This document shows positions 3,859-58,841 of a DNA stretch of 64,000 bases, piece after piece. Both the position numbers and the translations under genes were made by a program. How positions within the stretch are numbered: the first letter of the stretch is position 1; every line of letters starts with the position of its first letter. The notes beneath the pieces were generated by a model. It did no database searches and had not been told where the DNA came from. It saw only the letters and a list, made by a program, of their open reading frames with translations. The DNA is from Simmondsia chinensis (lineage: Eukaryota; Streptophyta; Magnoliopsida; Caryophyllales; Simmondsiaceae), in contig JAGTTD010000010.1 of assembly GCA_018398585.1 (NCBI GenBank), positions 18,784,005-18,848,004 on the forward strand, read 5' to 3'.

Positions 3859-3863
3859 TCAAA

Positions 3864-8973: not shown

Positions 8974-9967
8974 TGTTAGAAAAATATGACGTTTGCAACG
9001 ACAATACTGCGTATAACAATGTGTAAAATACTACATAAAATACTGTTATGAGTTACCGAGAAAATACCCAAAAATTATAGTATAAACGAAATGAAAATGC
9101 AGCTAAAAATTACAGTGTACTGACCAAAAATTGCAGTAAAATTATCCAAAATCACTGTAAATTGCTCAGCAAAAAATACTAAAAAAATAAAATCTCGGTA
9201 CAACGTAGTAATATATTCCAGAAAACTTGCATCGAAAACCGCAGCCGATTAAATGAACAAGACAATCAAATAATACTGTAAGAGGAAGAATAGATTAGAA
9301 AATACCGAAGATACCGTGGCCTAGGAAATACCACTATCCTAAAAGACAATTTTGCCGCTACTTCGGTGTATACAGTGTTATCGGCGGTCGTCCTCCAGGA
9401 TTAACACGGTCCGACTCTTAACGTGCACTTGTTAGTCGTCAGGTAGGAGAGAACGAGAACTTTGCCCAAGTTTTGTTAAGGAAGAAAGAACAAAATAGGA
9501 TGAAGAATCAAGAGATATATAAGCAAGATGATTACTGTGAGTTCATATTTTTTTGCAGTAAATTAGAACTTGAATATATACTGAGGTAAAGAGGAACTAG
9601 TAGTAATGATCCAACGGCAAGTAATGGTTTGCAGTAAAACAGGATTAATATTGTGTAATTAACAGGTCTTAATTGGTGCAGTAAAGAGCTTAACAATGGT
9701 AAAGAGGTTTAATGCAGTAACGGTGACATATTTTTCGTAAAATAAATATACCCGGTGTAAAAAATTCACCCTCGCCCTCGCCCTCGCCCTCGCACGGCGG
9801 GCGGACGGCACGCGTGTGGTTTCCACCATTCCTTCACCCAAGGCTTAATTCAAATGGATTAAAAACACACTCCCTTATAAACCCAACTACCCCTCTCTAA
9901 ATTATCAATGTGGGATTTGATACAACTACCTACACATTTAGACTTAGCTTGTATCATTTTTCCAACA
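8974..9967 (-). repeat. 5' LTR of element H
   Basis: This 994-bp LTR is the partner of 3864-4883. It carries a hexanucleotide expansion of the CTCGCC type (about 9770-9795), expanded relative to the other copy. Confidence 0.85.
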
Positions 9968-9972
9968 TCAAA

Positions 9973-10391
9973 GAGGGTCTTGGATAAATGTTTTGCAACA
10001 AGTAATAATAAGCCGAGTATTTGACAAATGGTGGGAATTTAAATGAAAATGATCAAGAATAAATTATGATTATAAGAGTTCATGAAATTTAACAAATCAA
10101 TAAACGCGAGCATGGGACAGATGATCTCGTTGGAAATCTTGAATTTCGCCCTTCATACGTCTTCGACCCAAAAAATTTGGATAAATTTAGTATAATCTAA
10201 GAGACCTTAGAAAAAGGTCCGATAAGAGTGCATGATGTTTCTTGCCCATTATACTCTAAAGGTAGACATTTTTCTTCATCATATTATACACGACATTTAT
10301 TGAACGAGGAAAGAGAGTTATAACTTGGTTTATATTCATTATCATGGGATAGAGTGTCCTGCTTTTATTGTAAGCTTTTCTATATCAAACA
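9973..10391. other. Short AT-rich spacer
   Basis: This DNA lies between the right TSD of element H and the start of the next LTR remnant. I see no gene, repeat pair or motif in it. Confidence 0.4.
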
Positions 10392-12255: not shown

Positions 12256-12985
12256 CTATCACTTGTTCTAAACCTAATTAACCCCGTTGCATAACTATCC
12301 TCTAGGGATCTTTCAACTCGTTGAGTATTATATCTTCAATATCGATATCGTACTGTGTCATTCTTTTGCTCACAAGCTATGATCTATAAGGAATTTTTTT
12401 TAGCCAATAAGTTTATTTTACAACTTCATAGCTTCCTAGTGCTCGACTTTCATAGCAAAGTAAGCAATACAAGAATGCTTCATACTTTACCATCTAATGA
12501 CTCCCACTCCTAGAGCAAACTTAAATTCCAATGTCAAACATCTAGAATCCATTTAAGACGAGCAACCCTTCATAAACCCAACATGTTTTCTTGGAATCTT
12601 GCTAAAGCTTGATTCTAAGAACATAGTTGGCTTATCCTAGGTTTTTCATTTTCAAATAACTAGGCAGACAATCTTAATAGCTAATAACATTTCTGCACAA
12701 TTCTTAATGAGTAGAATCCCATCTATATACAATACTTTGAAAGTCACTACTTTTTGGTCATGTCCTCATACACTTATGGTTCAGAAACCATTGGCTCAAA
12801 TCCATATGATTTGATAGGGATCATCGAATCCACTATCAAATGAATAAGACGCTTATCTAAGTCTACAATTAGACTTCCTCAGTTTGCATACTGTATGTTC
12901 CTGACTCTTGGCAACAAACTTGTCTGGTTGTATAATATACATAACTTTTTCAAGATGACCATTCAGAATAACTTTGCAGGTCCTC
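12256..12985 (-). pseudogene. Degenerate copia pol (RNase H and RT parts)
   Basis: Immediately inside the LTR, the minus strand shows a polypurine-like tract with the same flanking wording as in element B. Degraded RNase H follows, with a CIA...M..EH stretch near 12420-12480 matching the copia CIADSTMEAE box. Further on there is an RT stretch containing LNGHLE, QPDKF and VCKLRKS near 12880-12975, matching the copia NGxLEExVYM...QPEGF...VCKLxKSxYGLKQA region. Several stops and frameshifts interrupt it. The homology stops near 12985, where LINE sequence begins, so the 5' part of this element has been lost. Confidence 0.65.
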
Positions 12986-13853
12986 CTCCTCATAGCATAG
13001 AGAAGAGCATCTCTAGCAAAAATAGCCTCAGCCCCGATAACAGAAGCTTGCCCTAGCTTTCTAGCCCGAGAAAAATGATATCACCTTGGTCATCACGAGC
13101 AATAAACCGTGCCGCAACCATCTTTCCCCATTTAGAATCGTCAAAATTAACCTTCAACCAACCTTGCCCAGGCAGGGATTAGGACACCTACCTGGAATAT
13201 CACTTACCACTCCTACTACCTGGGTGACTCACTGTTGCTGCCTTGTTCATACTGCTGCGAAAATTCCACTCATAAGCCATTGTCTAGCATGGAGAAATGG
13301 TTTGATCGGGCACGACATTGTATCGTTCAAAAAAGCGCTTTGTCTTTCCAAATTTGACGACAATGGAGAATGAACTTTGAGAGATTCCCGCTTCTTCTCT
13401 AAGCTCTCAATTCATATGCTAAGGTGGGGCAACGTGGGATTTTGCCACCTCATTGATCCAACCACTTGCCAAATCTCAACAACACATCGACACGATAGGA
13501 GGATATGGTGAATGTTTTCGTTCACCGAGCCACACCAAACATAGGCCCGAGCATGCCCACGAATGTGCTTGCAAACTTAGGCTCTAGTTCCAATGCAGTC
13601 ATTTAGGTCTTCTCACAAAAAAAATTTAACCTTAGGGGGATGTTAAGGTCCCAAATCTTTCTAAATTCCCACGGGTTCCTATCAGCCCAATAAAGATTAT
13701 GGGCCAGCCAAGTGGCCGTGTGAACACTAAATTTTCCGGTGCTCGTAAAACCTCAACAAAGCTTATCTTCCACCTATTTTTTGGGGATTGAGATCCCAAG
13801 TTACTATTAATAGTCTCATGGGGGACCACACTTGGAGTTTCTCTAGATTACAT
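12985..13853 (-). pseudogene. LINE (L1-type) ORF2 3' part: zf-RVT and RNase H-like domains
   Basis: Minus-strand translation gives a broken zf-RVT domain. It reads DLNIP/L...FF, then LNDCIGTRA.VCKHIRGHA, then VWCGSVNENIHHILLSC around 13500-13660, which is the cysteine/histidine block of plant LINE ORF2 C-termini. After it comes an RVT_3 RNase H-like segment (GWRLILTILNGERW..., WLRHGLLLVMTK) near 13060-13170. Stops and frameshifts make it non-functional. The same ORF2 continues beyond element D at 16603-17000, so D landed inside this LINE. Confidence 0.65.
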
Positions 13854-14258
13854 TGTCATGATTCAAGATGAATCATGAATCATAACCTAAGATAAATGCT
13901 GAATTAAAGTAAAAAAGTGAAGAGAATTAGAGATTTAAGATGAGAATTAGAGAACCAAGATAAGAAGTAGAGAAATTAGAGAGCAAAGTAGAGAGAATTA
14001 GGGTTTGAAGAAGAAGATAGAAATTGATATCATTCATCAATTATGGGTTACAAGAGAGATCATCCTAATTATACTAAGAGCTAATATACTGCACTTAGAC
14101 ACACAAACTAACCGACTTATACTAGAGCCGCCACTCTTGACTAATACTTACTAACATATTAACCAAAACTAACCGACATTACCAAGTACTAAACCATACA
14201 AGACCATTATTGAGGACTTATTACTACTTAGCATTTCTTATATCCTAGAATCATGACA
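13854..14258 (-). repeat. 3' LTR of element D
   Basis: A 405-bp LTR with TG/CA ends, rich in AGAGAATTAGAG-type purine repeats on the plus strand (a CT-rich U5 side on the minus strand). Confidence 0.88.
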
Positions 14259-14366
14259 ATACTCCCCCCTTTAGAGATTATGTTCTCAAAGATCTCATTA
14301 GAGAGCATTGTGACTGTAAGGAATCTTATTGATGCTGAAGCTACTGAAATTGCAGCTGGGAATGAG

Positions 14367-14738
14367 TTAGTTGGTGTAGACTTTTGATTTTGATGCAGTT
14401 TGTAGTAGCTGGACGAACACATTTACCCTTGACACCAATTGGTGAAGCATTATGCTGCATAAGTACATGTGTCTAAACGTCCAAACCTTTCCCAACTTGA
14501 TTGTCTTGCTTGAACTTTCTAAGGCCTCTGTTGCAGCAATTTTGATAAACAACTTCCAAATATCCTCCCATTTACAAAGTTTCACTATGAAGTCCATCGT
14601 GCTCGTGATGAAAGTATGAAGTATCTGGGTTTCTCTTGATTCACAGCATTCTATATATTTGAATCCCAGGCCATAGCATTCTCCAATCTGGTGTTGCAGT
14701 AGTATGAATTCAGCACTGCCAGATGAGATTTGCTCCAC
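14367..14738 (-). CDS. Element D ORF-b, unknown protein
   Basis: A 123-codon minus-strand ORF in the 3' half of element D. I do not recognise the family. The notable stretch is LGKVWTFRHMYL (near residue 80), which resembles LGKLWKFKDLEF in the element J ORF and LSKVHNLRAL in the second ORF of element C, in the same relative place. It is probably the C-terminal part of a longer protein whose N-terminal part is the ORF at 14924-15394, separated by frame breaks. No signal peptide, membrane segment or catalytic motif is evident. Whether it is expressed is unknown. Confidence 0.4.
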   Translation of the reverse strand: MEQISSGSAEFILLQHQIGECYGLGFKYIECCESRETQILHTFITSTMDFIVKLCKWEDIWKLFIKIAATEALESSSKTIKLGKVWTFRHMYLCSIMLHQLVSRVNVFVQLLQTASKSKVYTN

Positions 14739-17746: not shown

Positions 17747-17786
<40 letters not shown>

Positions 17787-25832: not shown

Positions 25833-25837
25833 CTCCA

Positions 25838-26240
25838 TGTCATGATTGTAATAATTAGGATAAGTAGTATAAGTGTTCTTATGTTAGTTAGTATGGGAAG
25901 GAATGATAGTTATTAGTTGGTTAGGGATATTCTTGTATTCGTAAATGTAGTTAGGTTGAGTTGTTATGTTGGTTAGATGAGTTGTATGTTGTATTGAGTT
26001 GTTAACCATTAGTTAGTGCATTAGCTAGATATTTCCTAGGCTTAAGCTAGTATAAATACTTAATCTCACACTTGTAATCCTCATTCATGATATTAATGCA
26101 AATCTTATACTTTCTCCCTCAATTCTATTCTCTCTACTTCTCCCTCTAATTCTCTTCTCTTCCTCATCTCTTTCTCAATTCTCTCTCCCAAACTCTCTTT
26201 CATTCTAAGTCACAACCCGAGCCCACCTCGGGCCATGACA
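25838..26240 (+). repeat. 5' LTR of element J
   Basis: A 403-bp LTR starting TGTCATGATT and ending CCATGACA, with a CT-rich stretch at about 26110-26200. Confidence 0.9.
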
Positions 26241-26255
26241 ATTGGTATCAGAGCT
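26241..26255 (+). promoter_or_regulatory. Primer binding site of element J
   Basis: ATTGGTATCAGAGCT sits directly after the 5' LTR, complementary in type to the initiator-Met tRNA 3' end. Confidence 0.85.
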
Positions 26256-26347
26256 CGATCTTGAGCACACATTTTTTTGTAGAATTGTTGCACTATTTGG
26301 CTTAAAATTGCACTCAAGTCTTGATCTTGTTGCATCTAAGAATAGCA

Positions 26348-27784
26348 ATGGATTCTTTACAGATCCTTGATGGTTTGATGAAGATTGTAAGATCGCTGCG
26401 GCAATTGGCTAAATACAAAGAGTTGTTGTTACCAACTTTGGTAGCAATGAAATCAAAGGCTCGTATTGAAGTTAGGAATAAAAGATCAGCAAGACTGAAG
26501 CATCTAACCCAGCAAAATTTGGTGATCAGGCTGCATTCAAGCTGCAAGAAACCGAGTGCTATCAAGAAGGTTCAAGGAAAATCATTCTTGAAGCAGAAAT
26601 TGAATCAAGATCTTGCACAAAATACAACATATGGAGCTGGGGAAGGCTGGAATCAGAAAATTGCAGCAGCCAAAGAGGTTAATGATGCAGCATTTATACT
26701 TCTGCAGAATAAAATGAAGCAAATACAAGCCTCTCAATTAGAACTGAAACCTGCAGCAGTAACTTCAGAAGCCTTCACCAAACAAACTCAAACGGATCAA
26801 CATGAGGCAGCAAAGTTGTCACCCATTCAGCAACAAGATGTAGGAAATTCAGATCACAAGTGGACATATCAGCCCATGGATCAATTTAAAGATATGAAGC
26901 TTGGTTCAACATTGCAATCAGATGCTGCACAGTTAGCAAAGTTGCATCTGCAGCCTCAGGAGTTGGAATTGACAGTGCGTCATATGCAAAGTTCATGGAA
27001 GCAGAACTCTGTGCAGCATGTTGGAGTTCAAGAAATTAGAGTGCAAGATCACATCTCCACAATTGCAAAGCCTTTTGGGGCAAAAGGAATCCCAATCTTG
27101 AATGATAGAGGTAGACCACCTGATTTTCTTGGTGGTAAGAGGGTTCACATAAGCAAGAGACTTAGAGCAAGAATTAGACCCGTTTTGTATTTTAATGGAA
27201 GACCACTTGAATTCCTAAACCTTAAATCGAATGCTAAGGTTCTTGGGAAGTTATGGAAGTTCAAGGACTTGGAATTTGAGCAACCAAAAGTGGTGATGAT
27301 GACCATTGATAGATTAGAGGTACTTTCTTGGATCAAGAAGACAAGTACGAAGGCAAAGGGAAGGCTGAATTCTATCAGAAATGAAGCAATGTCAGCAAAG
27401 AAATGGGTTGCCAATGCTCCAAGGCAATCCAAATCAGTAAAGGAGCAAATTGATAGATCTACAAGGATGGAAAATGCTGCAGATTCAGCAATGAGTCAGA
27501 TTGAGGCAATAGCTTCACACCAAATGCAAGATTTGGATGCAACTGTAAGGATTAAGCATCAACCAAAGCCATATATTCTGCAATCACAAGGAGTAGACCA
27601 AGTACCAGACCCGGTCAGCTTACAACATCAAATGGGAAGAGTTGAAGTTTGTTCAGCTTTTGATGCAGCAATGAGTTCATATGTAAGAATGCCAGATAAG
27701 CTCCATTTTGGTACTGATCATGTAGGAAATTGCTGCAGCAAAGGGCATTGCAGCAAGCAAGCAAGTGTAAGTGTAAATACTTAA
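26348..27784 (+). CDS. Element J ORF, 478-residue protein of unknown family
   Basis: This open frame has no internal stop. I take ATG 26348 (MDSLQILDGL); an in-frame ATG at 26321 would add nine residues. The protein is basic and rich in Lys, Gln and Ala. The N-terminal 80 residues are Lys/Arg-rich; residues about 85-230 are Gln-rich and probably helical; a central segment has RPPDFL (about 265) and RPLEFL (about 286); LGKLWKFKDLEF starts near 299; an Ala/Ser/Met-rich helical stretch follows. There is no CCHC knuckle, no DSG protease, no integrase and no YVDD. Collinear look-alike motifs occur in elements C (QFKEVLEPST, RPPEYV, LSKVHNL) and D (EFKGIIEPS, LGKVWTFRH), which suggests a conserved retroelement protein, perhaps with a structural or nucleic-acid-binding role. 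That role is inference. Confidence 0.7.
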   Translation: MDSLQILDGLMKIVRSLRQLAKYKELLLPTLVAMKSKARIEVRNKRSARLKHLTQQNLVIRLHSSCKKPSAIKKVQGKSFLKQKLNQDLAQNTTYGAGEGWNQKIAAAKEVNDAAFILLQNKMKQIQASQLELKPAAVTSEAFTKQTQTDQHEAAKLSPIQQQDVGNSDHKWTYQPMDQFKDMKLGSTLQSDAAQLAKLHLQPQELELTVRHMQSSWKQNSVQHVGVQEIRVQDHISTIAKPFGAKGIPILNDRGRPPDFLGGKRVHISKRLRARIRPVLYFNGRPLEFLNLKSNAKVLGKLWKFKDLEFEQPKVVMMTIDRLEVLSWIKKTSTKAKGRLNSIRNEAMSAKKWVANAPRQSKSVKEQIDRSTRMENAADSAMSQIEAIASHQMQDLDATVRIKHQPKPYILQSQGVDQVPDPVSLQHQMGRVEVCSAFDAAMSSYVRMPDKLHFGTDHVGNCCSKGHCSKQASVSVNT

Positions 27785-27953
27785 TCATGTGGGAAGTTCA
27801 TCATGTGGCAAGTGGTCTGAGCATACTGCAGTAAGCAGCAAGTCCTGCAGAAGTAGAAGGCTTGTTTCAATTACAACTTATGATAATTACGTTCTTAAGA
27901 GCTAACCTTCTAATTAGATTATTGAGGACAAGAATCTCTAAAGGGGGATGTAA

Positions 27954-28358
27954 TGTCATGATTGTTATAATTAGGATAAGTAGTATAAGTGTTCTTATGT
28001 TAGTTAGTATGGGAAGGAATGATAGTTATTAGTTGGTTAGGGATATTCTTGTATTGGTAAATGTAGTTAGGTTGAGTTGTTATGCTGGTTAGATGAGTTG
28101 TATGTTGTATTGAGTTGTTAACCATTAGTTAGTGCATTAGCTAGATATTTTCTAGGCTTAAGCCAGTATAAATACTTAATCTCACACTTGTAATCCTCAT
28201 TCATGATATTAATGCAAATCTTATACTTTCTCCCTCAATTCTATTCTCTCTACTTCTCCCTCTAATTCTCTTCTCTTCCTCATCTCATTCTCAATTCTTT
28301 CTCTCCCAAACTCTCTTTCATTCTAAGTCACAACCCGAGCCCACCTCAGGTCATGACA
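27954..28358 (+). repeat. 3' LTR of element J
   Basis: A 405-bp LTR, partner of 25838-26240, followed by TSD CTCCA. Confidence 0.9.
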
Positions 28359-30726: not shown

Positions 30727-32354
30727 ATTGTTACTAATTCTTTTTATATGGTAAGGAGGTACCACAACATTTCAATAAAGGTCACTAGCCAACATCAATA
30801 GAGAGGGGAGATGGGTTTCAAACCCAATGTCTTGTTAAAAATTCCACAGGAAAAAGGCACAAGTAATGGTGGGTAAAGGGGAAAGTTTTCTAAAGGGAAG
30901 AAAAAGACAAAACAGAACTTTACAAAAGGAGCGAACAAGTTTAAAGGACAATGCTAGATGTGTGCAGATTTGGATCATCCTGCCTACAAATGCTCAAAAT
31001 GCCATGAACAAAGAACGCCTGTAGATAACAAATCTCGTACTCACCAGACTGAAGACCCCATTCAAGAAACCATTATTGCTATAATCTTGGAGGTAAATTT
31101 ACTTGGTAAAACGATCTAGTGGATCATAGATACCGGGGCTACAAGGAACATCTGCGCCAATAAGGATATGTGCACTAAGTATGAGAAGTTGGGTGAGGGC
31201 GAGGTTATGTACATGGGTAACTCAGGTTTAGTGGTTGTGCTAAGTAAAAGGAAGATTCTTCTCGAACTTACTTCTAGGAAAAAAAAACTTTATATTAGAA
31301 TGTTTTGCATGTTTCTAAATATTGGTAGAAACTTAATTTCCAGTGCTGTGCTCAACAAGGCAGGTGTAAAACTGATATTTGAATCTGATAAGCTAGTGCT
31401 AACTAGGAATAGGGAATACATGAGGAAGGGATATTTTACTGGGGGCCTACGTCGTGTTGAATGTTGTTGATAACATGATAAACCAGGTTCATTTACTTAT
31501 ATAGATGAGTCACTTGAGTTATGGCCTACTAGATTAGATCATGTTAATGTTCTAACAATTAGAAAACTGAAAAGCCTAAATTTAATTCCTAATATTAGTA
31601 ATAATGAGTTCACAATATGTGAGATTTGTGGAGAAGCCAAACATCCCCAAAAGGCCCTTAATGAAAGGTAGGAAGGACTTTGGGACTGTTAGAATTAAGA
31701 CACCGTGATCTCGGAGATTTTAAGAACACTGTAAATCGATGCGGTAAACATTACTATATCACCTTTGTTGGTGTTTATTCTGGATTCACAAATGTATACC
31801 TCTTCAAAAATAAGAATGAGGCCAAAGACATGTATAAAATATATAAGGCTAAAGTCAAAAGCCAATTTGACCTAAGAAAAAAAAAATTTAAGAGATTTTA
31901 GGATTGATAGTGAAGAAGAGTATGGTTTTGAATCCCTTTAAAAATTTTATGAATAACATGGAATCATATATGATGTCCCAGCCCCTTAAACACCTGAACA
32001 AAATGGTATAGCAGAAAGAAAGAATCAAACTTTAAATGAAATGATGAATGTGTTGCTGATAAGTTCGGTTTCCCTACAAACATGTGGAGGGAAGCACTTC
32101 TATCTGCATGCTATATGCTTAATCGTGTACCTGATAAAAAGTTAGACAAAACACCTTATGAATTGTAGAAAGGCCTTGCACCAAATCTTAATTACCAAAA
32201 AGCATGAGATGTCTTACTACAGTAGGACTATCTGAATTTAAGAGGGACAAGAAAGGTCACAAAACCATTGATGCAATCTTCATTGGTTATGCACACAAAT
32301 ATTTGAACATATTTTTCCTATGCAATCACCGGTTGTTAAGAGTCCCTATGCATT
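30727..32354 (+). pseudogene. Old copia element A, left part (gag end, protease, integrase)
   Basis: Degenerate copia coding. A zinc-knuckle-like stretch is at about 30950-31010, protease IDTGATRNIC at about 31126, then NISSAVLNKAG-type sequence and GAG-pre-integrase (LDHVN...) at about 31530. Integrase follows with YYITFV.VYSGF (about 31750) and TPEQNGIAERKN (about 31990). Stops and shifts occur throughout. The element is interrupted at 32354 by insertion of element B and resumes at 43868. The start of gag and the 5' LTR were not identified. Confidence 0.75.
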
Positions 32355-34550
32355 TGTTAGGAACAGTGTCCTAAAATTCAAATTTATTCTGGATATATTA
32401 TTTTAATTAATAAATAAAATTGAATTCCTAGTCATTTCCTAGTTAAATTTGTGTATGTGAGCATTTATACTGCATATGGTTTTCTTTTGAAAACATCCAT
32501 GAGATAGGTGTAGTCCTCAGACTACAATTTACATATTTGTTCTAAGTGGTTTTTGAGACTAAGCCACAGATAGACTTGAAACAAATGGTATGGATTGCTG
32601 TTTGAAATACTCGTAGTCGAAGACAAGTTTGGACTACTTGTATGTTAAGACCATTATGTGACACTTTAGATGACTTGTCTTGGTCATGTGGATGGAGATC
32701 CAAAAGTGCTAGGTAGTGTACTTAATAAGATTGACACACTAAGTTGGACTATGTGGTTTACTTATTTCTAGACTACTATCGAAGATGAGTTATTCATATT
32801 GTACTGTTTGAATGACAACTCTAAATCTTGAGGGTATTCTGGACTTGTGTATGGAACGTTAGTTACTTTGGCATACTATAAGTAAGGTCTAAACGAATGA
32901 CTGAAATCCCACATACATTGGATAGCGGCGTGAAGTGTGACAAAGATAAGGTATTCAATATGGGATCTACGGTCTCATATGAGATACAGATGTCCCCTTA
33001 GTTGATTCGCAAATACTTGAATAGTTTGGAAACTTTGGCCAAAGTATTCCAAGTGTTCGACATTTGGAATTTATACTGTGAATATGTTCAAGTATAAATG
33101 AATTATTCAGTGAAGGGCAAGTGCGTAACTAATGGAGAAGCTGTGAGAAGAATAATGGTAGTAGTTATATTTATCATTTGTCATGAACATCGAGTGGAGG
33201 GGTTGTTGTCATCAATACATTCTACTGGGGAGATATCGAATAAATAGTTTAAGTCTAGAGTGTAATGAGATTTATTTAGTGAAATTAGGTCTCATTAAAT
33301 AGTAATTAAATTATTTCAGGAGATGATTAATTTAAATTAAATTATTTCAAGAGATGATTAATTTAACATATTTGGAGCTAGATTTAAATTGTCCTTGAGG
33401 TCCCTGCGCAATGAAATGAATTATTTATCCATGAGATGGATAAAGTTAATTTTGCCAAACATTATTCAAAGGATGAATAAAATTAAAAATTATAAAATAA
33501 AATAATTTTAGAAAATTAAAATTCATAAGACAAATTTTTACACGTGGGAAACAAAGCAAAAAAAAAAAAAAAAAAATTTGCGTTAACAAATGGTGATCCC
33601 CGTAATTTGCATTGGACAAACCAGCCCCATTGGTTATCCGCGTCAACTTAAGTGGGCCAATGAGTGGCCACCATGTGTCACGCACAGTATAAATTTAGCC
33701 AGGTAAAAAACACTGCATTTTACCTATTTTTAAAATGAAAATGATGCATTTTGGTTTTTGTTTTGCGAGTCCCACGTCGAATTTTAATAATTTTTTGCTC
33801 CGGTATATTCCTATAAATAGAGGTGCTTCCGAGTTTGGTATTCAGTTTCAGAAACAAGTTTTAGGGTTTCTGAAAATAGTTTCGGAGACCTAATTGGAGA
33901 GAAAAATTTCCATTGAAAGTTTTCTTTCCTCAGTTTAATATTTTTCGGAGCCCACCCTCCGGGCAGTTTGAGGTCATTGCATAGAAGATCGCAAGGTCTC
34001 GATTTTTTTGGTATCCTTTATTATTGGAGCAATTTCAGGTATGTTCTTCTTTCCTTATTATTTTTGCTTTTTTAGTTATTTATAGTATTCGTTGTTATGC
34101 ATGTTTAACTTTATGTATTGTTATGAATATATTAGAGAAAAATGCCTGTAGATCAAAATTAAAGAATTTAGATCCGTTGATTTAAATTATGAATTTAAGT
34201 CAGTAGATTTAAAATTAGGAATTTTAAGTCGACCCTAGGTTTAGAGTTATGAATTCAAAACCTATTCCGCTGCGTTAACTTTATAAAACTAGGAGGAATT
34301 TTTGAAATTCATCCCAACAACCGGTATTGGGGCAAAGGGTTTATAGAGATAAACTTATTCTTGAGAACTCTCGCACATGAGGTGTCGCGAAGCATGACTC
34401 TCTGACCAGGGGCTTAGGAAGAGAGAAGAGTCTCCTATTCTAAGTGCTCTAATAGGTGCCTATTGTTGTGACCATAGTTGAGAACTGTAAATTCAATAGT
34501 CGGCATCAAAGTTTATTTTGCAACAAAATTCATGCTTTTTTTTCCCAATA
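32355..34550 (+). repeat. 5' LTR of copia B
   Basis: A 2196-bp LTR with an A-run near 33559-33577 and a TATA-like box at 33812-33819. Confidence 0.9.
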
Positions 34551-34565
34551 ATTGGTATCAGAGCC
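34551..34565 (+). promoter_or_regulatory. Primer binding site of copia B
   Basis: ATTGGTATCAGAGCC directly follows the 5' LTR, matching initiator-Met tRNA priming. Confidence 0.88.
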
Positions 34566-35043
34566 AGCCTCTGATTACATTCATAATATAAATAGGTATA
34601 ATAAGATCGAAATAAATAGATCTGCGATTTAATAAAACAGAGATTGTATTAAGAAGGAAAAACTTGTTTGAATTTGTGATTTAAATTATTTAAATCATTA
34701 AAAGAGTTAATAGTTAACTAGGTTACTTAAAGTATTGATTTAAATTGTTTAAATCAGTTGAAATATTTAATAATTAACTAGGTTATTTTTCGTGATGATT
34801 TAAATTGTTTAATCATTAGAGAATTAATCGTTAATTCAGATCTAACAATCTATTAATTCGGGATTACATGATATTTATTATGAGACAATGATCATTTGGT
34901 TAAGATTTGTTAAATCATATAAGATTAATCTAATGAGATTAGATGACAAAATCAGATAAAATTAATCTAATGAAATTATTGGTTTTAAATTAAATTATTT
35001 TAATTTAAAATTTTAAAAAAATAAAAAATAAAAAAATTGTCAC

Positions 35044-35109
35044 CAGACGTTGATGTCATGCTGATGTCGGCACCTGCTGCGGACGTCTGACAACTGACAT
35101 CAGCGTCTG
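35044..35109 (+). other. GC-rich inverted repeat in copia B leader
   Basis: The arms are CAGACGTTGATGTCA (35044-35058) and TGACATCAGCGTCTG (35095-35109). They pair at 14 of 15 positions, and the exception is a G-U pair in RNA. The 36-nt loop holds further GATGTC/GACGTC words that could extend the fold. It stands out because the surrounding leader is very AT-rich. Confidence 0.75.
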
Positions 35110-35225
35110 ACGTCTAACTTCAGCAATTAAAAAAAAATTTTATTATTTTATTTTTGGGACATGTGGGCGTCAGTACTGATTTATATAATAATTATAAATT
35201 AATTATTTTATTAATTAATTTTGTT

Positions 35226-35765
35226 ATTGATTGAGATTCTAAATTAGATTATGAGATAATCTAAGTTGTGTATTAGTATTAGTTTTTAAATAAAAGTTAT
35301 TTTAATTAATTTTAGAATAAGATTCTAAAATAGATTGTGAGATAGTCTAAATCTTTAAATTTAATTTTAAAATAAAAGTTAAATTTTATTAATTAAATTT
35401 TAGAATAAGATTCTAAACTAGACTATTTGATAGTCTAAGCTTATTTAACTCTTAGAATGAGATTCTAAAGTAGACTACGTGATAGTCTAAATTTTAAGAC
35501 GTTGCTCATTTTGAATAAAAGTAATTTTATTACTTAATTTAATTTTAGAATTAGATTCTAAATAAAAGGTTATGAGATAATCTATGGTACCGTTTTTAAA
35601 AGTAAAATTAATTGATTAATTTTATTGAATAAATTTAGAACGAGATTCTAAAGTAATATTATGAGATAATCCATGCTTTAAAATGATAATATTTTGAATA
35701 AATAAATAAATTAATTTTGGTTAATTTTAGAATAAGATTCTAAAGGGGATTATAAGATAATATAG
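35226..35765 (+). repeat. Array of seven double-palindrome repeats in copia B leader
   Basis: Each unit has two adjacent short palindromes. The first is TTAGAAT-NNN-ATTCTAA, at 35312, 35400, 35452, 35545, 35635 and 35727, with a diverged copy at about 35226. The second is of the type AGATTAT-NNN-ATAATCT, for example 35246-35262. Spacing is about 86-93 bp, with one short step of 52. In the second stem the sequence changes from AGATTAT/ATAATCT to AGACTAT/ATAGTCT (unit 3) through AGATTGT/ATAGTCT (unit 2, G-U pairs), so pairing is largely kept. The array sits after the primer site and before pol. No protein is encoded here. Confidence 0.85.
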
Positions 35766-35799
35766 GTTGTAAATGCAAGTTAATTAAAAATCACTGGTT

Positions 35800-36420
35800 A
35801 TAAAACTCAAGTGGGAGCAAGGTTTCAATTGTTGTAACCTCACGGTCTCCATTACCGGTCTAGCAGTATAGTAGATCGATAGACCTCCCTGCGGAGGATG
35901 TAGGTTTGCAGATTACAGGGTTAGACTTTTGTTGGGATAAACAGCAGTGCAAAGAAGCAATGCGGCCACGCTGCCATGGAGTATTTCATGTATTTGTATG
36001 GGCTTTAGGTAATGATTTACACTTGACTAGCGTGATGCATTAGCCTTCCCGAGGAGCTCTATTGTTTCATATTAGAGACTAAGGTAAAGTGGTTAGTTAA
36101 TCATATTTAGTAAGAGTTACAAGAAAATAGGTTAATTGAGAATAGTTCCCATCCAAGCTAGCTTCGTGCGACCCGCTACCGGGGAGTAAGGAGTGGTGTG
36201 TTTGGGTCATCATTGTATGCATGATAATACAGTTTGGTGGATATCTAACTTATTGTGTATGCTAAATTGAAAGAATATATATCACTGTATTATACATGAC
36301 TCTTGTTAGAAAGTTACACAAATGTTTGCATTTACAGTATTTTATATGGATAGGGTTGGCAAACTTTGCTTGATTTTAAATACATAATGTACTCGCTGAA
36401 CCAAATTACTTTGCCTTGAA
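35800..36420 (+). other. Remainder of the copia B leader
   Basis: Non-coding. It has GC-richer segments such as 'ctcacggtctccattaccgg' and 'gcgacccgctaccggggag' (about 36168-36188). I see no ORF that looks like gag, so gag is either very degraded or deleted. Confidence 0.5.
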
Positions 36421-36439
36421 AAATAAGTTAGACTTGGTT

Positions 36440-38650
36440 ATTACTCACAAGAGACCTACTAGAAAGAAAGAAAAGGGTAAGGTTGCTATTGTAGCATCCA
36501 AGTCCATAAGGAAGTAAGCAAAAGAAAAATGTTTCTTTTGCAAGAAAACTAGGCTACTGGAGAAGAAACTACACTAATTTACATAGCTACTCTTCCTGCA
36601 AAAACTGCTAAGTTATCTGGTGAAGGTATGTTGATATCTCACTTAGTTGAGTCATGCGCAGTTGAGAGTCCACCAGTTTCCTAGTGGGTGGACTCAGGTT
36701 CAACTAACCATATCTATAATATGTTACAGGAGCTTAGGCTGGGCTAAAGGCTACACGATGGGTGTTGTACCTGATGGCCAGAGACAGTACAATAATAGTG
36801 GTCTTAAGTATAGAAGACGTTAGCTTTTACTTTAGTGATAGAGTTTTGTTTTAAAGGATTGATTATTTAAACCTTCGCTGTACATGAATTTGATTTCTGT
36901 ATTTTGGTTAATAGATAATTGTTATTCAGTTGATTTTGATAATAAAAATTTTAATATGAGAAATAAATTGTTTATTTTCATATGTACATGAAAAAATTGT
37001 TTATTCATGTTATTTCCTTATCAAAACTCCGGTGATTGTTTAAATAAATCTAACGTAAGTTCACTTGTTTAATCTTCTAAAAGAAAACACCCTAAAGGTG
37101 ATAATGCCTACACAAAATGTTTAGGTCACATTAATTCAAACAAGATCCAAACACTGGTAAAAGATGGACGGATAGAGGCTTTGAACTTGAGGTTATTACC
37201 AGTCTGCAATTCCTGCATAGAAAGAAAGATGATCAAATATATCTTTAAGAGTAAAGGCAACAGGGTTGGTGGCTTGCTTGAGTTGGTTCACATAGATGTA
37301 TGTGGACCAATACATGTTCAAGCAAGAGGTGGGTATGAGTATTTAATCACGTTTAGTGATGATTACTCAAGGCATGGATATGTTTACCTGATGACACATA
37401 AGTCAGCCTTTTTTTTTTTGGAGAAATTCAAAGAGTAGAAAGTTGAATTTTAAAAGCTATTAGGTAAACAAGTCAAGTCACTTCAATCAGATCGAGGTGG
37501 TGGATATTTTTCGGGTGAGTTTTTGATTTTGCTGAATGCAAATGAGATAAGATCTTAGCTTTCTACTCTGGTTACACCGAAGCGGAATGGTGTTGCAGAT
37601 AAAAGGAACAAGGACGGTTTTTTCTACAGTTTATTGATTTAAAAGGTCCTTTGTAAATATAATGCAAAATACTTAGAGAAGCATTTTGCAAGTAAGCTAC
37701 AAAAACAAAAATAAAATAGTACTAAAGGAAAATGACACTAATTCTAAACAGCTATACAATTCAAGACATAGTGGATGCATTAGATGCACCTACTGATAGG
37801 AATGAGAATATTCCAAGTACACGAGAGCTTAAGTGTGGTGGGAGGATTGTCAGAACACCTGACAGGTTCATAGCGGGAGCCGTAGTGGTTGACCGTGGCA
37901 TTGAATCTAATCCTTTTAGCCACAATAAAGTAATTAAGTCTTATAGTTTTGAAAAATTGGTTAAATGAACCATGTGTGTACAATCGACATTAAGAGAAAG
38001 TAGTGACTTTCTTGGTATTGTATGTCAACAATATACTACTCATTAGGAATGATGTGTGGGTGTCATTAGCTGTAAAGACTTGATTGTCATGATAGCTCAA
38101 TATGAAAGACATAGGAGAAGCCATATCTACTCTTAAGATTAAGCTTCTGCAAGGTCGTAAGAGTAGGATGTTGGGTCTTTCTCTAGCCACTTATATTGAC
38201 AAGACGTTGTCAAGATATAGTATAGAGTCCCTCTCTCTTTTGAATAGTGTTATAGGACACCTCAAGAGGAGGAGCAATTGAGGAATATTCCATATGCTTT
38301 GGTAGTGGGAGCCACAGGTATACCATGTTGTGCACGAGACTTGATATCTGCTATGCTATGGTATAGTAAGCAGATGTTAGTCTAACCTGGGTCCAATGGA
38401 CTAGGTGGCAGTGAGTTGTTTTCTTTAATTCTTGAGAAGAACTAGAGATCCTATGCTGATCTTTCAAAGTGACGAGCTGGTAAGACTTCCAGTCAAGATT
38501 AAAATGATAGACGTTCAACGTCTAAGCATGTCTTTATCCTTGGAGTGGGAGCCATTAGTGAGAGAAGTGTCAAGCAGTATTGTATTGCTGACTTCCCAAT
38601 AGAGTAATTGAGCTCACTAAGGGTTAGGCTCAGTAGACCTTTGGTTCAAA
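36440..38650 (+). pseudogene. Copia B pol remnant
   Basis: Broken copia coding. A CFFC knuckle-like stretch is at about 36528, protease WVDSGSTNHIYN at about 36688, and pre-integrase/integrase coding LGHINSNK (about 37120), CNSCIERKM (about 37201), HIDVCGP (about 37290), YLITFSDDYSRHGYVYL (about 37340) and QSDRGGGYFSGEF (about 37487). RT and RNase H are represented only by fragments: a PDRFI stretch near 37857, MKDIGEA near 38103, GIVSRC near 38350, RRTRDPMLIF near 38445 and CIADF near 38585. The N-terminal RT core (LNGxLEE, GLKQA) was not found, so an internal deletion near 37950-38050 is likely. It cannot encode a working enzyme. Confidence 0.75.
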
Positions 38651-39998
38651 CTTAAAAGGGGTGAGTATGGACTTTGTCATAAATTGGATTTAGAACAAGT
38701 GGGAGATTGTTAGGAATAGTGTCCTGAAATCTAGATTTATTAGGGATATATTTTTGTAATTATTAAATAAGATTGAAGTCCCAGTCATTTCCTAGTTAAA
38801 TTTGTGTATGTGAGCATTTATACTGCATGTGATTTTCTTTTGAAAACATCCATGAGATGGGTGTAGTCCTCAGACTACAATTTACATGTTTGTTCTAAGT
38901 GGATTCATAAATAGACTTGAAACAAATGGTATGGATTGTTGTTTGAAAGACTCGTAGTTGAAGACAAGTTTGGACCACTTGTATATTAAGACTATAACGT
39001 GACACTTTAGATGACTTATTTAGATCATGTGGATGGAGATCCAAAAGTGTTAGGTAGTGTGTTTAATAAGATTGACACACTGAGTTGGACCATGTGGTTT
39101 ACTTATTTCTAGACTACTATCGGAGATGAGTTATTCGCATTGTACTGTTTGAATGATGACTCTAAATCTTGAGGGTATTCTGGACTTGTGCATGGAGCAT
39201 TAGTTACTTTGATGTACTATAAGTAAGGTCTAAACGAATAACTGAAATCCCACGTACACTGGATAGCGGCGTGAAATATGACAATGATAAGGTATTCAAT
39301 AGAGAATCTATGGTCTCTTATGAGATACAGATGTCCCCTTAGTTGATTCGCAAATATTTGAATAGTTTGGAAACTTTGGCCAAAGTATTCCAAGTGTTTG
39401 ACATTTGAAATTTATATTGTAAATATATTCAAGTATAAATAAATTATTCAGTGAAGGGCGAGTCGGTAACTAATGGAGAAGCTGTGAGAAGGATAATGGT
39501 AGTGATTATATTTATCCTTTGTCATGGACATCTAGTTGAGGGGTTGTTGTTATCAATACATTCTATTGGGGAGCTATTGAATAAATAATTTAAGTCTGGA
39601 GTGCAATGAGATTTATTTAGTGGAATTAAGTCTCATTAAATGGCAATTAAATTATTTCATGAGATTATTAATTTGACCCATATGGAGCTAGATTTAAATA
39701 GTTCCTAGGTCCCTGCGCAAGCCTCTTTATTTTATTACCATTGAAAAAATATTAAAGAATTCATGAGATGAATTATTTATCCATGAAATGGGTAAAGTTA
39801 ATTTTGCCAAACATTATTTATGGGATGAATAAAATTAAAAATTATAAAATAAAATTATTTTAGGAAATTAAAATTCATAAGATGAATTTTTACATCTAGG
39901 AAACAAGCAAACAAAAAAAAAAAAAAAAAAAAAGGCGTTAATAGATGGTGATCTGCTTAATTTGCATCGGATGAACCAGCGAGCGACGCCCACTAGTT

Positions 39999-40607
39999 TG
40001 TTATGATCCGAGAATCCAAGGCTTGAGAGGGTTTAATGTTGTGTTCGGTAGCTGCTGCTGGGGGCTGAGATGTAACTTAATTGGTGCTATTATTGTGGGG
40101 TTGTTAGCTAATAAAGATGTAATAGTCTTGGTTAAGTGTTGTTCTAGCTATGGGGCGTTAATAAGCTGCTAATCTCTCTTGTAATCTGGTAGTTCGCAGC
40201 TGTAATGTTAACCTGTAGTAAGCATGCTGCTGCTGTTGTTGGTCTTTGCGCCATAAGCCTTAGGTAGTTATGTTAGTTAGTAGATATTTTAGAGTTAGTT
40301 AGATATTTTCTTGGACCTTGATATTTTTAGTGTGAGTCGGTTAGCTTGGGTAAGTCTAGGTTCAATGTTTTAGCTTGCATTGTTTTGGCTATAAATAATG
40401 GTGATCAAGTGTAATTCTGAATCATTCAATCAAATTCAATGAAACAATCTCAACTTGAGATCAAATTCTCTCTCTCATCTAACTCTCTCTATTTCTCATC
40501 CCTAATTCTCTAGTTTCTCATCTTAATTCACTTCTTTCTCATCTCATACTCTCAATCTATCTCAATTTTACTTAGCTTATGTTTGGGAATCGATCCCGAG
40601 CATAACA
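39999..40607 (+). repeat. 5' LTR of element C
   Basis: A 609-bp LTR with TATAAATA at about 40391 and a CT-rich U5 side from about 40460. Confidence 0.88.
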
Positions 40608-40622
40608 ATTGGTATCAGAGCC
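40608..40622 (+). promoter_or_regulatory. Primer binding site of element C
   Basis: ATTGGTATCAGAGCC lies directly after the 5' LTR. Confidence 0.87.
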
Positions 40623-40997
40623 TCGTTTGGCTTCCAATCGAGTGCGTAATCAAAAGAAAAATAAAAAAAAACAAAAAAAAAAAAAACAAATTCAGATCAG
40701 TTAAGGACAATTAGTTTAAAATCAGTTCAGAATTGTAGTCAATCAGGAAATTGTGATCGATTAAATACACATACGGTTGATCTGCTGGTGTTAGATTGAG
40801 AATTGTGCTTGTGTTGTTTTGAATTTTAGTTAGCGTGGCAGAGATATATGGATTAAGAGTTCAGCTCAAGCATGATAGACTGAATTAGGTTGAAATTTAG
40901 TTGCGGCAGAAGCTGAAATATGTTGATAACTAAATTCAGTGCACATGAACTGGTGTCCTGAAGATAGTTGGCAGTGGCACAACCAGAGCAGCAAGTG

Positions 40998-41858
40998 ATG
41001 GAATCAAATTTCAGTGAGGTAATCGAATCACAAGTGCAAATTACAAATGATCCGCTGAACACACACCTGGAGGCAATGCTCACTCGGCTAGAGCAGTCTC
41101 AGTTAGATATGGAGGAACGATTGCATAAAATGTTGCAAGAATAGGATCGAAAGTTTAATGAGAGATTTGGCTTGCAATTCCAGCGTGTTGATGAGGATAA
41201 TGAAGATCAATTAAATCAACAAAAACAAGGATTTGAGGAGAAGGTAACTGAACGTGTGACGCAGCCAGCTCAAGTTAGGGAACCAAATTTCATTGATGTA
41301 ATCAAAGCACAAGATGACGATAGAATCACTCAAGCCAAATGCATGCAAAAAGTTCTTGTTGCAGAATCACATATTCCGGTGGAGAAATTTCATGTTCGGC
41401 CGGAGAATTTGCAAAATCTGATCACATGGCAGTTTAAGGAAGTGTTGGAACCTTCGACAGTGCAAGATCAACTTCCCAAATTGAATGAAGCAGTTTCAGT
41501 TCAAGATCTTGTTGCTGATTTACAGCCTGCGCAACATAAATTGATACAATTACAAGCAAGCGATTCATTTCAGTTTGGAAAGTTGCACAACCCGATCAAA
41601 GAGCAAGGTCAAATGATTGAAGTTGGTGTTTATACAACAAAGAACACTAACAATAGGTTCTTTGATCAAAGAGAGTGGAAGCTTACTGTTCAGATCAACA
41701 AAGAGGAATTTAACAATGAATTGAACAAGTTGGGAGCTTGTATTGTTCAAGTTGAGAGCAAAGGACATCTTCCCAAAATACAAGCAAATGTTAGGCCTCC
41801 CGAATATGTTGTGAAATTGGAGACTAGGCTGGATTTAGAGGTTTTAAGGAGGACTTGA
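40998..41858 (+). pseudogene. Element C ORF, interrupted by one stop
   Basis: An in-frame ATG at 40998 opens a coiled-coil-like stretch (HLEAMLTRLEQSQLDMEE...) that meets a TAG at 41142-41144. The same frame continues to 41858, and an ATG at 41172 would give 228 residues. The downstream part is Gln/Glu/Val-rich with QFKEVLEPSTVQDQL (about 41430-41474) and RPPEYVVKLE (about 41794). These correspond in order to EFKGIIEPSMMQDQQ in element D and to QFKDMKLGST and RPPDFL in element J. The protein family is unknown to me. The stop suggests the copy is dead, unless translation restarts at 41172. Confidence 0.6.
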
Positions 41859-42151
41859 AGTTCATGTGCTGTAAACTGAAAAATTCAGGTAGCTGGGTTC
41901 TTGTAGGAGCTCAAAACTTGACTGAATTCCTTTGGAGTCTTGCCGAGACAATTGGAAGTTTTTCTTGGTTGAGTAAAGTTCACAATCTTCGAGCCTTAAG
42001 TTCAATTGCTCTAGATTACATGCTGAATTGGTGCACACAAAAGAGAATAGCTATTGGCATTAGTGTGTGGCTGATTTGGTTGAATCTGAATAGACCTCCT
42101 GAAAGATACTCCAAAACAGATGCAAGACATCTTAGCAGGGGCCAAAAGTAG
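41855..42151 (+). CDS. Element C second ORF, unknown protein
   Basis: This 98-codon ORF overlaps the end of the previous frame by 4 nt (ATGA-type overlap). LSKVHNLRAL (about 41973) sits where J has LGKLWKFKDLEF and D has LGKVWTFRHMYL. In J the equivalent region is part of one continuous protein, so this is probably the C-terminal part of the same protein, put out of frame by a mutation. It is Trp- and Leu-rich in the middle. No function is assigned. Confidence 0.4.
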   Translation: MKFMCCKLKNSGSWVLVGAQNLTEFLWSLAETIGSFSWLSKVHNLRALSSIALDYMLNWCTQKRIAIGISVWLIWLNLNRPPERYSKTDARHLSRGQK

Positions 42152-42333
42152 CTCATCTGTGGGATTATTTGTCTTGGAGTTGGTTGAATTGACATGTTGT
42201 TGGTAGAAGTTGCTTCAGAACTTCTCGTCCATTGCAATCCCGGCTTGAAGTTCATCACCATCAACTCCAATTTCTACCTCTATATCAATAAATGTTCTTC
42301 TTGAGGACAAAAATATTTTCAAGGGGAAGGGAA

Positions 42334-42939
42334 TATTATAATCCAAGAATCCAAGGCTTGAGAGGGTTTAATGTTGTGTTTGGTAGCTACTGCTGGGGGC
42401 TGAGATGTAGCTGAATTGGTGCTGTTATTGTGGGGTTGTTAGCTAATAAAGATGTAATAGTCTTGGTTAAGTGTTGTTCTAGCTATGGGGTGTTAATAAG
42501 CTGCTAATCTCTCTTGTAATCTGGTAGTTTGCAGCTGTAATGTTAACCTGCAGTAAGCATACTGCTGCTGTTGGTCTTGGCACCATAAGCCTTAGGTAAT
42601 TATGTTAGTTAGTAGATATTTTAGAGTTAGTTAGATATTTTCTTGGACCTAGATATTTTTAGTGTGAGTCGGTTAGCTTGAGTAAGTCTAGGTTCAGTGT
42701 TTTAGCTTGCATTATATTGCCTTATAAATAATGGTGATCAAGTGTAATTCTGAATCATTCAATCAAATTCAATGAAACAATCTCAAATTGAGATCAGATT
42801 CTCTCTCTCATCTAACTCTCTCTATTTCTCATCCCTAATTCTCTAGTTTCTCATCTCAATTCACTTCTTTCTCATCTCATACTCTCAATCTATCTCAATT
42901 TTACTTAGCTTATGTTTGGAAATCGATCCCGAGAATAAC
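42334..42939 (+). repeat. 3' LTR of element C
   Basis: A 606-bp LTR, partner of 39999-40607. Both of its outer ends have mutated away from the TG/CA form. Confidence 0.87.
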
Positions 42940-43867
42940 TAGTTATCCGCGTCAACTTAAGCGGGCCAATGAGTGGCTGCCACGTGTCACGTACAGTCCA
43001 AAATAAAAGGGCGATTTTAGCAAGGTAAAAAACGCTGCATTTTACTTATTTTTAAAATGAAAACGATGCATTTTGGTTTTTGTTCTGCGAGTCCCACATC
43101 GAATTTTAATAATTTTTCGCTCCGGTATACTCCTATAAATAGAGGTGCTTATTTCAAGTTTGGTATTCAGTTTCAGAAACAAGTTTTAGGATTCCTGGAA
43201 ATAGTTTGGAGACCTAATTGGAGAGAAAAATTTCCATTGAAAATTTTCTTTCCTCAGTTTAATATTTTTCGGAGCCCACCCTCCGGGCCGTTTGAGGTCA
43301 TTGCGTAGAAGGTTGCGGGGTCTCAATTTTCTTGGTATCCTTTATTATTGGAGCAATTCCAGGTATGTTCTTTTTTTCTTATTATTTTTGCTTATTTATT
43401 TATTTATAGTATTCGTTGTTATGCTTGTTTAATTTTATGTATTGTTATGAAAGTATTACAGGAAAAGTTCTGTAGATTTAAATTAAAGAATTTAGATATG
43501 TTGATTTAAATTATGAATTTAAGTCAGTAGATTAAAAATTAGGAATTTTAAGTCGACCCTAGGTTTAGAGTTAAGAATTCTAAACCTGTTCTACTGCGTT
43601 ATTAAAACTAGGGAGAATTTTTAAAATTTATCCAACAACCGGTATAAGGGCAAAGGATTTATAGAGATAAACCTATTCCCGGGAAATCTTGCATGTGAGG
43701 TGTCACGAAGCGTTACTCTCTAACCGGGGGCTTAGGTAGAGAGAAGAGTCTCCTATTCTAAGTGCTCTAATAGGGGTCTATTGTTGTGATCGTAGTTGAG
43801 AACTGTGAACCAAATAGTCGGCATCAGAGTTTATTTTCAAATAAAATTCATGCTTTTTTTCCCAACA

Positions 43868-45214
43868 GCATTTTCGACACATGTGCTAGACCTCGACCTT
43901 ATTAGAATACTAAACCTAGAAGTAGCAAGAGAATTAGGACGTAAAACACCTTTGGTCCAAATTTTATAACTTCTTTCTTAACTAAAAATAATGCAATACA
44001 TGAATAATTTGTTCCTACTTTTATAATTGAAGAAGATCCTAAAACCTATGAGGAAGCTAGACATTATGTTCTAAAAATAGACAATAAATAGCCGACTAGA
44101 TTCTATAATGAGCATTTATATGTGGGAACTTGTAGTCTACCCAATGAGTGTAAACCCATAGGGTGTAAATTGTGTTTAGGAAAAAGTTGGAGGCGGATGC
44201 TATCAGTGACAAGTTTAAAGCTAAGCTTGTAGCCGAAGGCTATCCCTGAAAGAAGGACATTTCAATGGTTGTTTTTATTAACAACAGTGATATGTGTGTG
44301 TACCTTAAAACCAGTGACAAAAGATGGTCATCATTTGTTTGTATGTGTGCGATATGCTCAGTTTTGGCACTAATGTTGATGCTGTAATTGAGGTCAAGTT
44401 TTTTCTAAATTCAAAATTTGATATGAAGGATCTGGAAGAAGGGATTTCCTAAAATAAAATCCACTATGTGAAAAAGATCTTCAAAAAATTCAATCAGTTT
44501 GATATTGATCCCGTGAAAACACCTTACGAGATCCTTCTATTAACTTAAAAATCAATAAATCAATTGGAGTGTCTCAGTTGAAGTATGCAAAAATAACTAG
44601 GGCATTGCCTATGTTGTGAGCAGGCCTAGTCGATATACCCATGATCCTAGTCGAGAACATTGAAGTGTTTTGACCTGATTGCTTAAATATCTAAGAGGGA
44701 CAATGGACAATGTCTATTTTATAAAAGATATCATGTCGTTTTAGATGGGTATTGTCATGTAAGTTGGTTTCTAATAATGATGAAATTCATTCAACCAGTG
44801 GTAATGTTTTCACTCTTGGAAGGGCTCCTATAGCTTGGAAGTCATCTAAGAAAACTTGCATTACAAAATCTACATGGAATATGAATTTACTATCTTGGAA
44901 TTGCCATATTTAGAGAATGAATGGCTTAGAGACTTTCTTGCAGAGCTTCTACTATGGGAGAAATCGGCTTCATCTATGCATCTTCACTGTGATTCGCAAG
45001 TGGGCATTGGTACCACATGAAACAAGGCACACCATGGGAAGAGAAGATATATACATCTTGGACATAGCATATTGAAGAGATTGATTGAAAATGGAGTGAT
45101 ATCACTTGAGTATGCAACATTTGCGAGAAATTTGGCCGATCATCTTATGAAAGACCTTTCTAGAAAGATGGCATTGGAAACAACATTAGGAATGGGACTA
45201 AAGCCCATCAAGTA
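43868..45214 (+). pseudogene. Old copia element A, right part (RT and RNase H)
   Basis: Continuation of the element at 30727-32354 after insertion B. RT-type fragments include KPIGCK (about 44155) and VSRPSRYTHDPSREH (about 44620). RNase H fragments include LKYLRGTMD (about 44680), HSTSGNVFTLG (about 44790), a CDSQVGIG stretch (about 44990) and GRRYIHLGHSILKR-like sequence (about 45040-45075), then NLADHLMKDLSRK (about 45130) and GLKPIK at 45198-45215. All frames are broken by stops. This gives A a near-complete set of copia domains across its two halves. Confidence 0.75.

Positions 45215-47396: not shown

Positions 47397-47443
<47 letters not shown>

Positions 47444-58802: not shown

Positions 58803-58841
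<39 letters not shown>

Follow-up and report, generated by a model that had tools for sequence, protein, structure and literature searches.

The 64,000-nt stretch of DNA analysed here (the window) holds a Copia LTR retrotransposon with clear ends, and this element is the host of a palindrome array (Table 1). Its target-site duplication, LTRs, tRNA-Met primer binding site (PBS), polypurine tract (PPT) and placement of integrase before reverse transcriptase are those of Ty1/copia elements. The domain order in the window copy is gag_pre-integrase, rve and RVT_2, all broken and below Pfam cut-offs. Both LTRs start with TGTTAGG (32355 and 38708) and differ by a K2P distance of 0.103 over 2,135 sites, equivalent to 4.0 to 7.4 million years if rates of 1.3e-8 and 7e-9 are assumed. 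A 920-bp LTR with a tandem partial copy upstream was ruled out, as TGTTAGG, the PPT and the GCATT duplication fix 2.2-kb LTRs. The apparent LTR break is due to the element nested inside the 3' LTR, which is younger than its host (LTR K2P 0.043 vs 0.103).

Table 1. Features of the array-bearing Copia element, in window coordinates
Feature	Position	Strand	Remarks
Target-site duplication GCATT, left	32350..32354	.	matches 43868-43872
5' LTR	32355..34550	+	2.2 kb, TGTTAGGAAC...CCCAATA; TATA box CTATAAATAG near 33811
Primer binding site TGGTATCAGAGC	34553..34564	+	
Array, seven units of one type-1 plus one type-2 palindrome	35226..35763	+	
Unit 1	35226..35262	+	type 1 35226-35242, type 2 35246-35262
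Unit 2	35312..35348	+	type 1 35312-35328, type 2 35332-35348
Unit 3	35400..35436	+	type 1 35400-35416, type 2 35420-35436
Unit 4	35452..35488	+	type 1 35452-35468, type 2 35472-35488
Unit 5	35545..35583	+	type 1 35545-35561, type 2 35567-35583
Unit 6	35635..35672	+	type 1 35635-35651, type 2 35656-35672
Unit 7	35727..35763	+	type 1 35727-35743, type 2 35747-35763
Conserved non-coding leader stretch in gag's expected place	35805..36330	+	stops; ratio 0.15
Decayed gag tail (zinc knuckle) and protease remnant	36450..36850 (approximate, by eye)	+	homologous to L085 frame
gag_pre-integrase and integrase core remnants	37115..37564	+	below Pfam cut-offs
Reverse transcriptase remnant (RVT_2, weak)	37976..38218	+	Pfam
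Polypurine tract AAGTGGGAGA	38697..38706	+	
3' LTR, split by nested element	38708..43867	+	
Nested LTR element	40001..42939	+	605-bp LTRs, K2P 0.043
Target-site duplication GCATT, right	43868..43872	.	

Elsewhere in the window, a plasma-membrane H+-ATPase exon lies at 61357-62151 and matches plant proteins (e.g. Glycine max, 93% identity), which points to a plant host, most likely a flowering plant. The minus strand at 11134-12815 carries a relative (~69%) of the host element's LTR start and pol end. A 2.5-kb element at 25837-28358 has 406-bp LTRs that are 97.5% identical, its own PBS and a 492-codon ORF without a Pfam match. Pure C or G runs of similar length (36-37 bases) occur three times within the 64 kb (17750-17786, 47407-47442 and 58805-58841) and are possibly assembly or sequencing artefacts.

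In each unit of the array, a 17-bp type-1 palindrome (TTAGAAT-NNG-ATTCTAA) is followed 3-5 bases on by a type-2 palindrome (AGAYTAT-NNG-ATARTCT). The first-pass annotation had described seven such units spaced mostly 86-93 bp apart. Start-to-start distances of the type-1 palindromes are 86, 88, 52, 93, 90 and 92, in agreement with that range except for the one interval of 52. Five type-1 palindromes are perfect, as had been claimed (units 2, 3, 4, 5 and 7); the exceptions are unit 1, whose left arm has decayed, and unit 6, with C-A at an inner pair. A 580-bp segment contains eight perfect palindromes with 7-bp arms and 3-nt centres, seven of the array motif and another from a spacer (35519); the expectation was 0.37, and the maximum in 500 Markov sequences was four. 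With up to three mismatches, the type-1 pattern matched 17 times in the window, a count that covers both strands and thus includes most palindromes twice, compared with an average of 3.2 in shuffled sequence and fewer than 17 in each of 100 shuffles. These comparisons rule out a chance origin and confirm the seven-unit array at 35226-35763.

Other small features share the leader. A second repeat at 34677..34834 (plus strand), with a period of 60, contains 9-bp/3-nt palindromes such as TGATTTAAATTGTTTAAATCA and has the same arm-3-arm design as the array. A short G+C-richer patch at 35041-35123 in the AT-rich leader holds GACGTCTGAC-like words, repeated and inverted. Three type-2 palindromes enclose the minimal upstream frame ATG AGA TAA (35251, 35572 and 35661). 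We also considered, and dropped as weak, an intron of the 5' UTR that would begin at CAG|GTATGT within the LTR (34038) and contain the array: 13 of 21 copies had AGGTATG exactly, and 30 of 65 had TTTGCAG.

Copies of the array were sought in the 831-Mb genome with positions 35200-35800 as query, and 40 places out of 3,001 first-look candidates were scored. Thirty-nine of these places were other copies (82-90% identity to the window), and all 39 carried the array at near-identical unit spacing, some with about one unit past the mismatch limit. A further 33 copies were picked without the array (20 + 3 by integrase, 10 by LTR/PBS). Array loss among related elements had been raised as a point to check; at least four units were present in 27 of these 33, counted under a mismatch limit that favours intact arms. 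The remaining six comprise one single-unit copy, three without homology before the leader and two that diverge early in it. Among the best 20 of 150 other copies ranked by integrase similarity, 17 retained the leader and every one of these had the array (4-8 units), the other three (L065, L077 and L081) having lost homology between integrase and leader. Three more integrase-selected copies, picked for long open frames, held seven (L084), eight (L086) and one (L085) units. Ten LTR/PBS-selected copies, taken out of 39 other matches listed, included eight with 4-7 units and two (L088 and L090) whose leader was lost within ~300 bp of the PBS.

The number of units proved less strict than the seven first described: under the mismatch limit, the 40 aligned copies have seven (27 copies), eight (9) or six (4). 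Unit number is nonetheless near-constant and the arms are conserved, which distinguishes the array from a hypervariable UTR minisatellite. Its occurrence in dispersed copies rules out a one-off tandem duplication and bears out the assigned leader position between PBS and pol. The family yields 3,001 to 14,435 first-look candidates in this one genome, a range of candidates and not of counted copies. Among viral contigs, 15 had a single match each to a 20-nt type-1 pattern and none had an array by that pattern; the integrase query gave one distant viral match only, and a plasmid search gave no match.

To assess selection, we compared 40 aligned copies, using columns in which no fewer than 39 had a letter. 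Because the array itself served as query in finding these copies, overall identity is raised, but we saw no reason for this to favour arms over loops or spacers; the alignment, the parsimony counts and the shared-variant tests are also free of mismatch-limit bias. Variants present in at least six of the 40 copies occurred at 13 of 195 arm sites (7%), 58 of 264 spacer sites (22%), 10 of 28 sites at loop positions 1-2 (36%) and none of 14 at loop position 3 (0%). Singletons per site were about equal (arms 0.67, loop 1-2 0.61, loop 3 0.64, spacers 0.69). In tree-free tests, shared variants differed between arms and spacers (p = 6e-6), arms and loops 1-2 (p = 8e-5), and loop 3 and loops 1-2 (p = 0.017). 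Parsimony on the array tree gave internal/external change ratios of 0.12 for arms and 0.31 for spacers (p = 3e-7; p = 4e-6 with stricter columns). A tree of 35 copies built independently from the downstream leader gave only p = 0.09 for arms against spacers, and p = 0.006 for arms against loops 1-2.

We infer that singletons mostly reflect neutral decay after insertion, and shared variants changes passed through living elements. The scarcity of shared variants in arms and at loop position 3, together with about equal singletons, then points to past purifying selection on the palindrome arms and the loop G. This G is fixed without a matching C at loop position 1. The first-pass annotation had judged the spacers less conserved and had invoked selection in place of plain tandem duplication, and both views agree with these data. 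The array is probably a signal that the element needs for being copied.

Arm pairing is well preserved across the 40 copies (89.1% Watson-Crick and 4.6% G-U, against 32-49% standard pairs for slid partners). At two type-2 positions, both arms change from unit to unit: the pair at position 3 is T-A in units 1, 5, 6 and 7 and C-G in units 2, 3 and 4, and that at position 0 is A-T in units 1-5, G-C in unit 7 and mostly unpaired in unit 6. Position 2 is G-T in about half of the unit 5 and unit 7 copies and otherwise mostly A-T. The paired changes originally read from the window as T-A, T-G and C-G in units 1, 2 and 3 thus hold for units 1 and 3, whereas the T-G of unit 2 is decay and no intermediate state (33 of the 40 copies have C-G there, four have T-G). 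Similarly, the retention of about five inner type-2 pairs in units 6 and 7 is true of the window, but the outer pair of unit 7 is G-C in 27 of 40 copies. The window's G-T at this pair is common to 10 of the 40, and the G-A beside it occurs in one. Type-1 pairs are most commonly alike in all units, except that one unit 1 position carries a T-T mismatch in 25 of 40 copies. A tree of 449 units from 68 copies, gathered under the mismatch limit and so favouring intact arms, placed three double pair-to-pair changes on internal branches, compared with 0-1 for slid controls. The double changes between units are few and fall at two type-2 positions.

The 15 common arm variants comprised five changes from Watson-Crick to G-U, two the reverse, one to A-C, one to a mismatch, two representing both sides of one G-C to A-T exchange, and four where the commonest state was unpaired. 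G-U-type variants outnumbered A-C-type variants 7 to 1, compared with 28 to 28 among singletons (p = 0.06); comparing G-U with the rest, for common variants from pairs against singletons, gave p = 0.012. When variants in 2-5 copies were added and transitions alone were counted (26 to 17), the excess had p = 0.32. G-U and A-C changes numbered 10 to 6 on internal and 98 to 65 on terminal branches of the array tree (40 copies), and 32 to 15 and 130 to 98, respectively, on the unit tree (449 units, intact arms favoured). The spacers, too, are strand-biased in this direction. As the tree counts do not clearly exceed this bias, we rejected a sense-strand G-U preference as proof of RNA and regard it as suggestive.

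Folding favoured the antisense strand. Relative to shuffles, z was -3.3 for sense and -6.1 for antisense RNA, and in a context of ~670 nt predicted hairpin probabilities were 0.24 (sense) and 0.45 (antisense) for type 1 and 0.37 and 0.58 for type 2. Local probabilities were closer (type 1 0.42 vs 0.54, type 2 0.60 vs 0.66). Rfam returned nothing at gathering score over 33600-37000 and one chance-level line.

Behind the array, in the expected place of gag, even the best frame contains six or more stops per 520 nt in all 60 rows aligned over most of 35805-36330. These rows were 34 array-selected copies, 15 of the top 20 by integrase, L084-L086, seven by LTR/PBS and the window. The low internal/external ratio of this stretch (0.15) indicates conservation despite the stops, for which neither an open frame nor an Rfam match accounts. 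Pfam detected no gag domain in the stretches examined of the window, L084 and L085. The frame of L085 homologous to 36450-36850 contains Pol_BBD and a sub-threshold zf-CCHC; this zinc-knuckle/protease remnant is more intact in L085 and L086 than in the window, whose own copy has no Pfam match there. The array-to-integrase layout, ~1.3 kb, is much alike in 17 complete integrase-selected relatives, with losses in L071 and L078.

As in BARE2, a translatable gag is lacking while other parts persist in many copies, although in the window pol is broken too. Since no gag was found, the Copia family appears to be gag-less and hence helper-dependent, like barley BARE2. For the same reason, translation control, one of the roles first suggested for the array, becomes less likely.

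A gag-less family needs only cis signals, so a selected, repeated leader element is best explained as such a signal. Our preferred reading, which we hold tentatively, is that the array is a cis-acting hairpin signal in the genomic RNA of a large gag-less, helper-dependent Copia family. Each unit would form two short hairpins with a three-base NNG loop, and the near-identity of type-1 arms across units, and largely of type-2 arms, would allow units also to pair between two RNA molecules. The array would be a multivalent dimer-linkage or packaging signal, read by the Gag of a helper; RNA would be the working molecule, such a helper would have to exist, and dimerisation or packaging would be the step served. 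It is unlikely, though conceivable, that some fourteen largely mutually complementary NNG-loop hairpins act as an RNA 'zipper' through which a gag-less family is dimerised and packaged by the Gag of another element. Little is known about what selects plant retrotransposon RNAs for packaging, or about how gag-less families can come to outnumber their helpers. A repeated leader element that has been under selection and is easy to mutate offers a direct handle on this question, whether RNA or DNA acts.

The RNA hairpin signal has a close rival, possible to nearly the same degree because the tests of RNA-strand pairing are only suggestive: the array could be a cluster of duplex DNA sites that lies ~1.4 kb 3' of the TATA box, is bound by a dimeric host protein and acts on the element as insulator or enhancer. 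We know of no host protein that binds the array motif. Dyad symmetry and AT-rich spacers fit DNA sites, as does a type-1 sequence that is almost invariant across units and copies; type-1 arms hardly covary, and sequence itself is kept. Sense-strand hairpins are no better than antisense ones, and by both hairpin probability and fold z-score they are worse, which argues against RNA. The architecture also resembles the gypsy insulator and Sirevirus palindromic repeated motifs, as described in the available parts of PMC2374998 and PMC2829016. Against DNA sites, loop base 3 is fixed and its mirror base free, an asymmetry easier to reconcile with a polar hairpin than with a symmetric protein dimer bound to duplex DNA. 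At positions 0 and 3, type-2 half-sites vary between units yet agree with each other inside a given unit, and these two-sided differences, with the three internal double changes, favour RNA. Also in favour of the hairpin signal are the family-wide presence of the array, the selection on arms and loop G, and the lean of common arm variants towards G-U. Its difficulties are that this excess is weak on trees relative to the spacer bias and fades once the 2-5-copy variants are included, that the independent tree separates arms from spacers less sharply, and that most copies lack pairing at the outer type-2 position of unit 6 and at one type-1 position of unit 1. Furthermore, L085 has a single unit, and no gag-bearing helper was among the fetched copies.

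Two further readings are less likely. Palindromes can be self-correcting, and tandem repeats in a fast-changing leader might have had no function past or present, their palindromes being kept by hairpin-templated correction during reverse transcription. The two double changes could then be single template switches, and tandem repeats in untranslated parts are known in plant LTR elements (PMC7004042, in part). We consider this improbable: correction accounts neither for a fixed loop base 3 beside free bases 1-2, nor for the near-constant unit spacing in copies, nor for the roughly threefold higher frequency of shared variants in spacers than in arms. Palindromes in maize Sirevirus LTRs have reportedly been proposed as small-RNA templates, and hairpins are predicted here in both strands. 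That the hairpins are a host-silencing feature of this kind is nevertheless very improbable, as targeting by the host alone would not preserve arms in the element.

We know of no comparable hairpin array in a plant retrotransposon leader; gypsy, a Drosophila element with a leader array of another kind, belongs to a different LTR superfamily than Copia. The gypsy insulator consists of 12 Su(Hw) sites in the 5' UTR and so likewise places a short-site array in an AT-rich retrotransposon leader, but the Su(Hw) consensus printed in the available text is not this kind of palindrome (PMC2374998). Yeast Ty1 has 5' palindromes PAL1-3 and kissing loops; these also lie near the RNA 5' end and are proposed to aid dimerisation, with three sites compared with seven units here (PMC5454406, in part). 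Tat/Ogre elements, which are plant LTR elements too, likewise carry tandem repeats in untranslated regions, but theirs are in the 3' UTR and hypervariable, whereas the present array is on the 5' side with near-constant unit number and spacing (PMC7004042, in part). BARE1/BARE2 is a Copia system whose leader is untranslated and which includes a parasitic subfamily deficient in gag, BARE2, said to retain dimerisation and packaging signals. BARE2 lost its gag start by an 8-bp deletion, whereas here the gag stretch is non-coding, and the text of that paper does not contain the term 'palindrom' (PMC3735527).

A literature search for palindromic repeats in LTR-retrotransposon leaders, with most subscription papers outside its reach, matched only the Sirevirus study (PMC2829016), and a broader search of titles and abstract openings gave no leader array among the matches listed. 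According to the available parts of that study, Sirevirus palindromic repeated motifs consist of a short dyad that occurs 8-32 times in non-coding regions, and are thought to be regulatory (Bousios et al. 2010, PMC2829016). Repeated short dyads in non-coding parts of plant Copia elements are thus common to both. Sirevirus dyads, however, lie in the LTRs and before env and mostly have CGG-CCG cores, whereas the present array is in the leader, AT-rich and with two dyads per unit. Sireviruses also have several identical PPT octamers near the 3' LTR (PMC2829016), which the present element recalls. Here the octamer is AGTGGGAG, found at 38304, 38544 and 38698 within ~400 bp before the 3' LTR, in a stretch part of which may be old pol; the Sirevirus octamer is AGGGGGAG, absent from both strands of the window. 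The junction at the 5' LTR reads TA/ATTGGTATCAGAGC, compared with CA/ATTGG/TATCAGAGC in Sirevirus, and the 3' LTR ends in ...CCCAACA. Because the octamer differs, we do not file the element under Sirevirus. The octamer AGTGGGAG also occurs at 35810, directly behind the array, and within the first 80 nt of the 35805-36330 stretch in 40 of 60 aligned copies, where one guess is that it provides a second plus-strand priming site.
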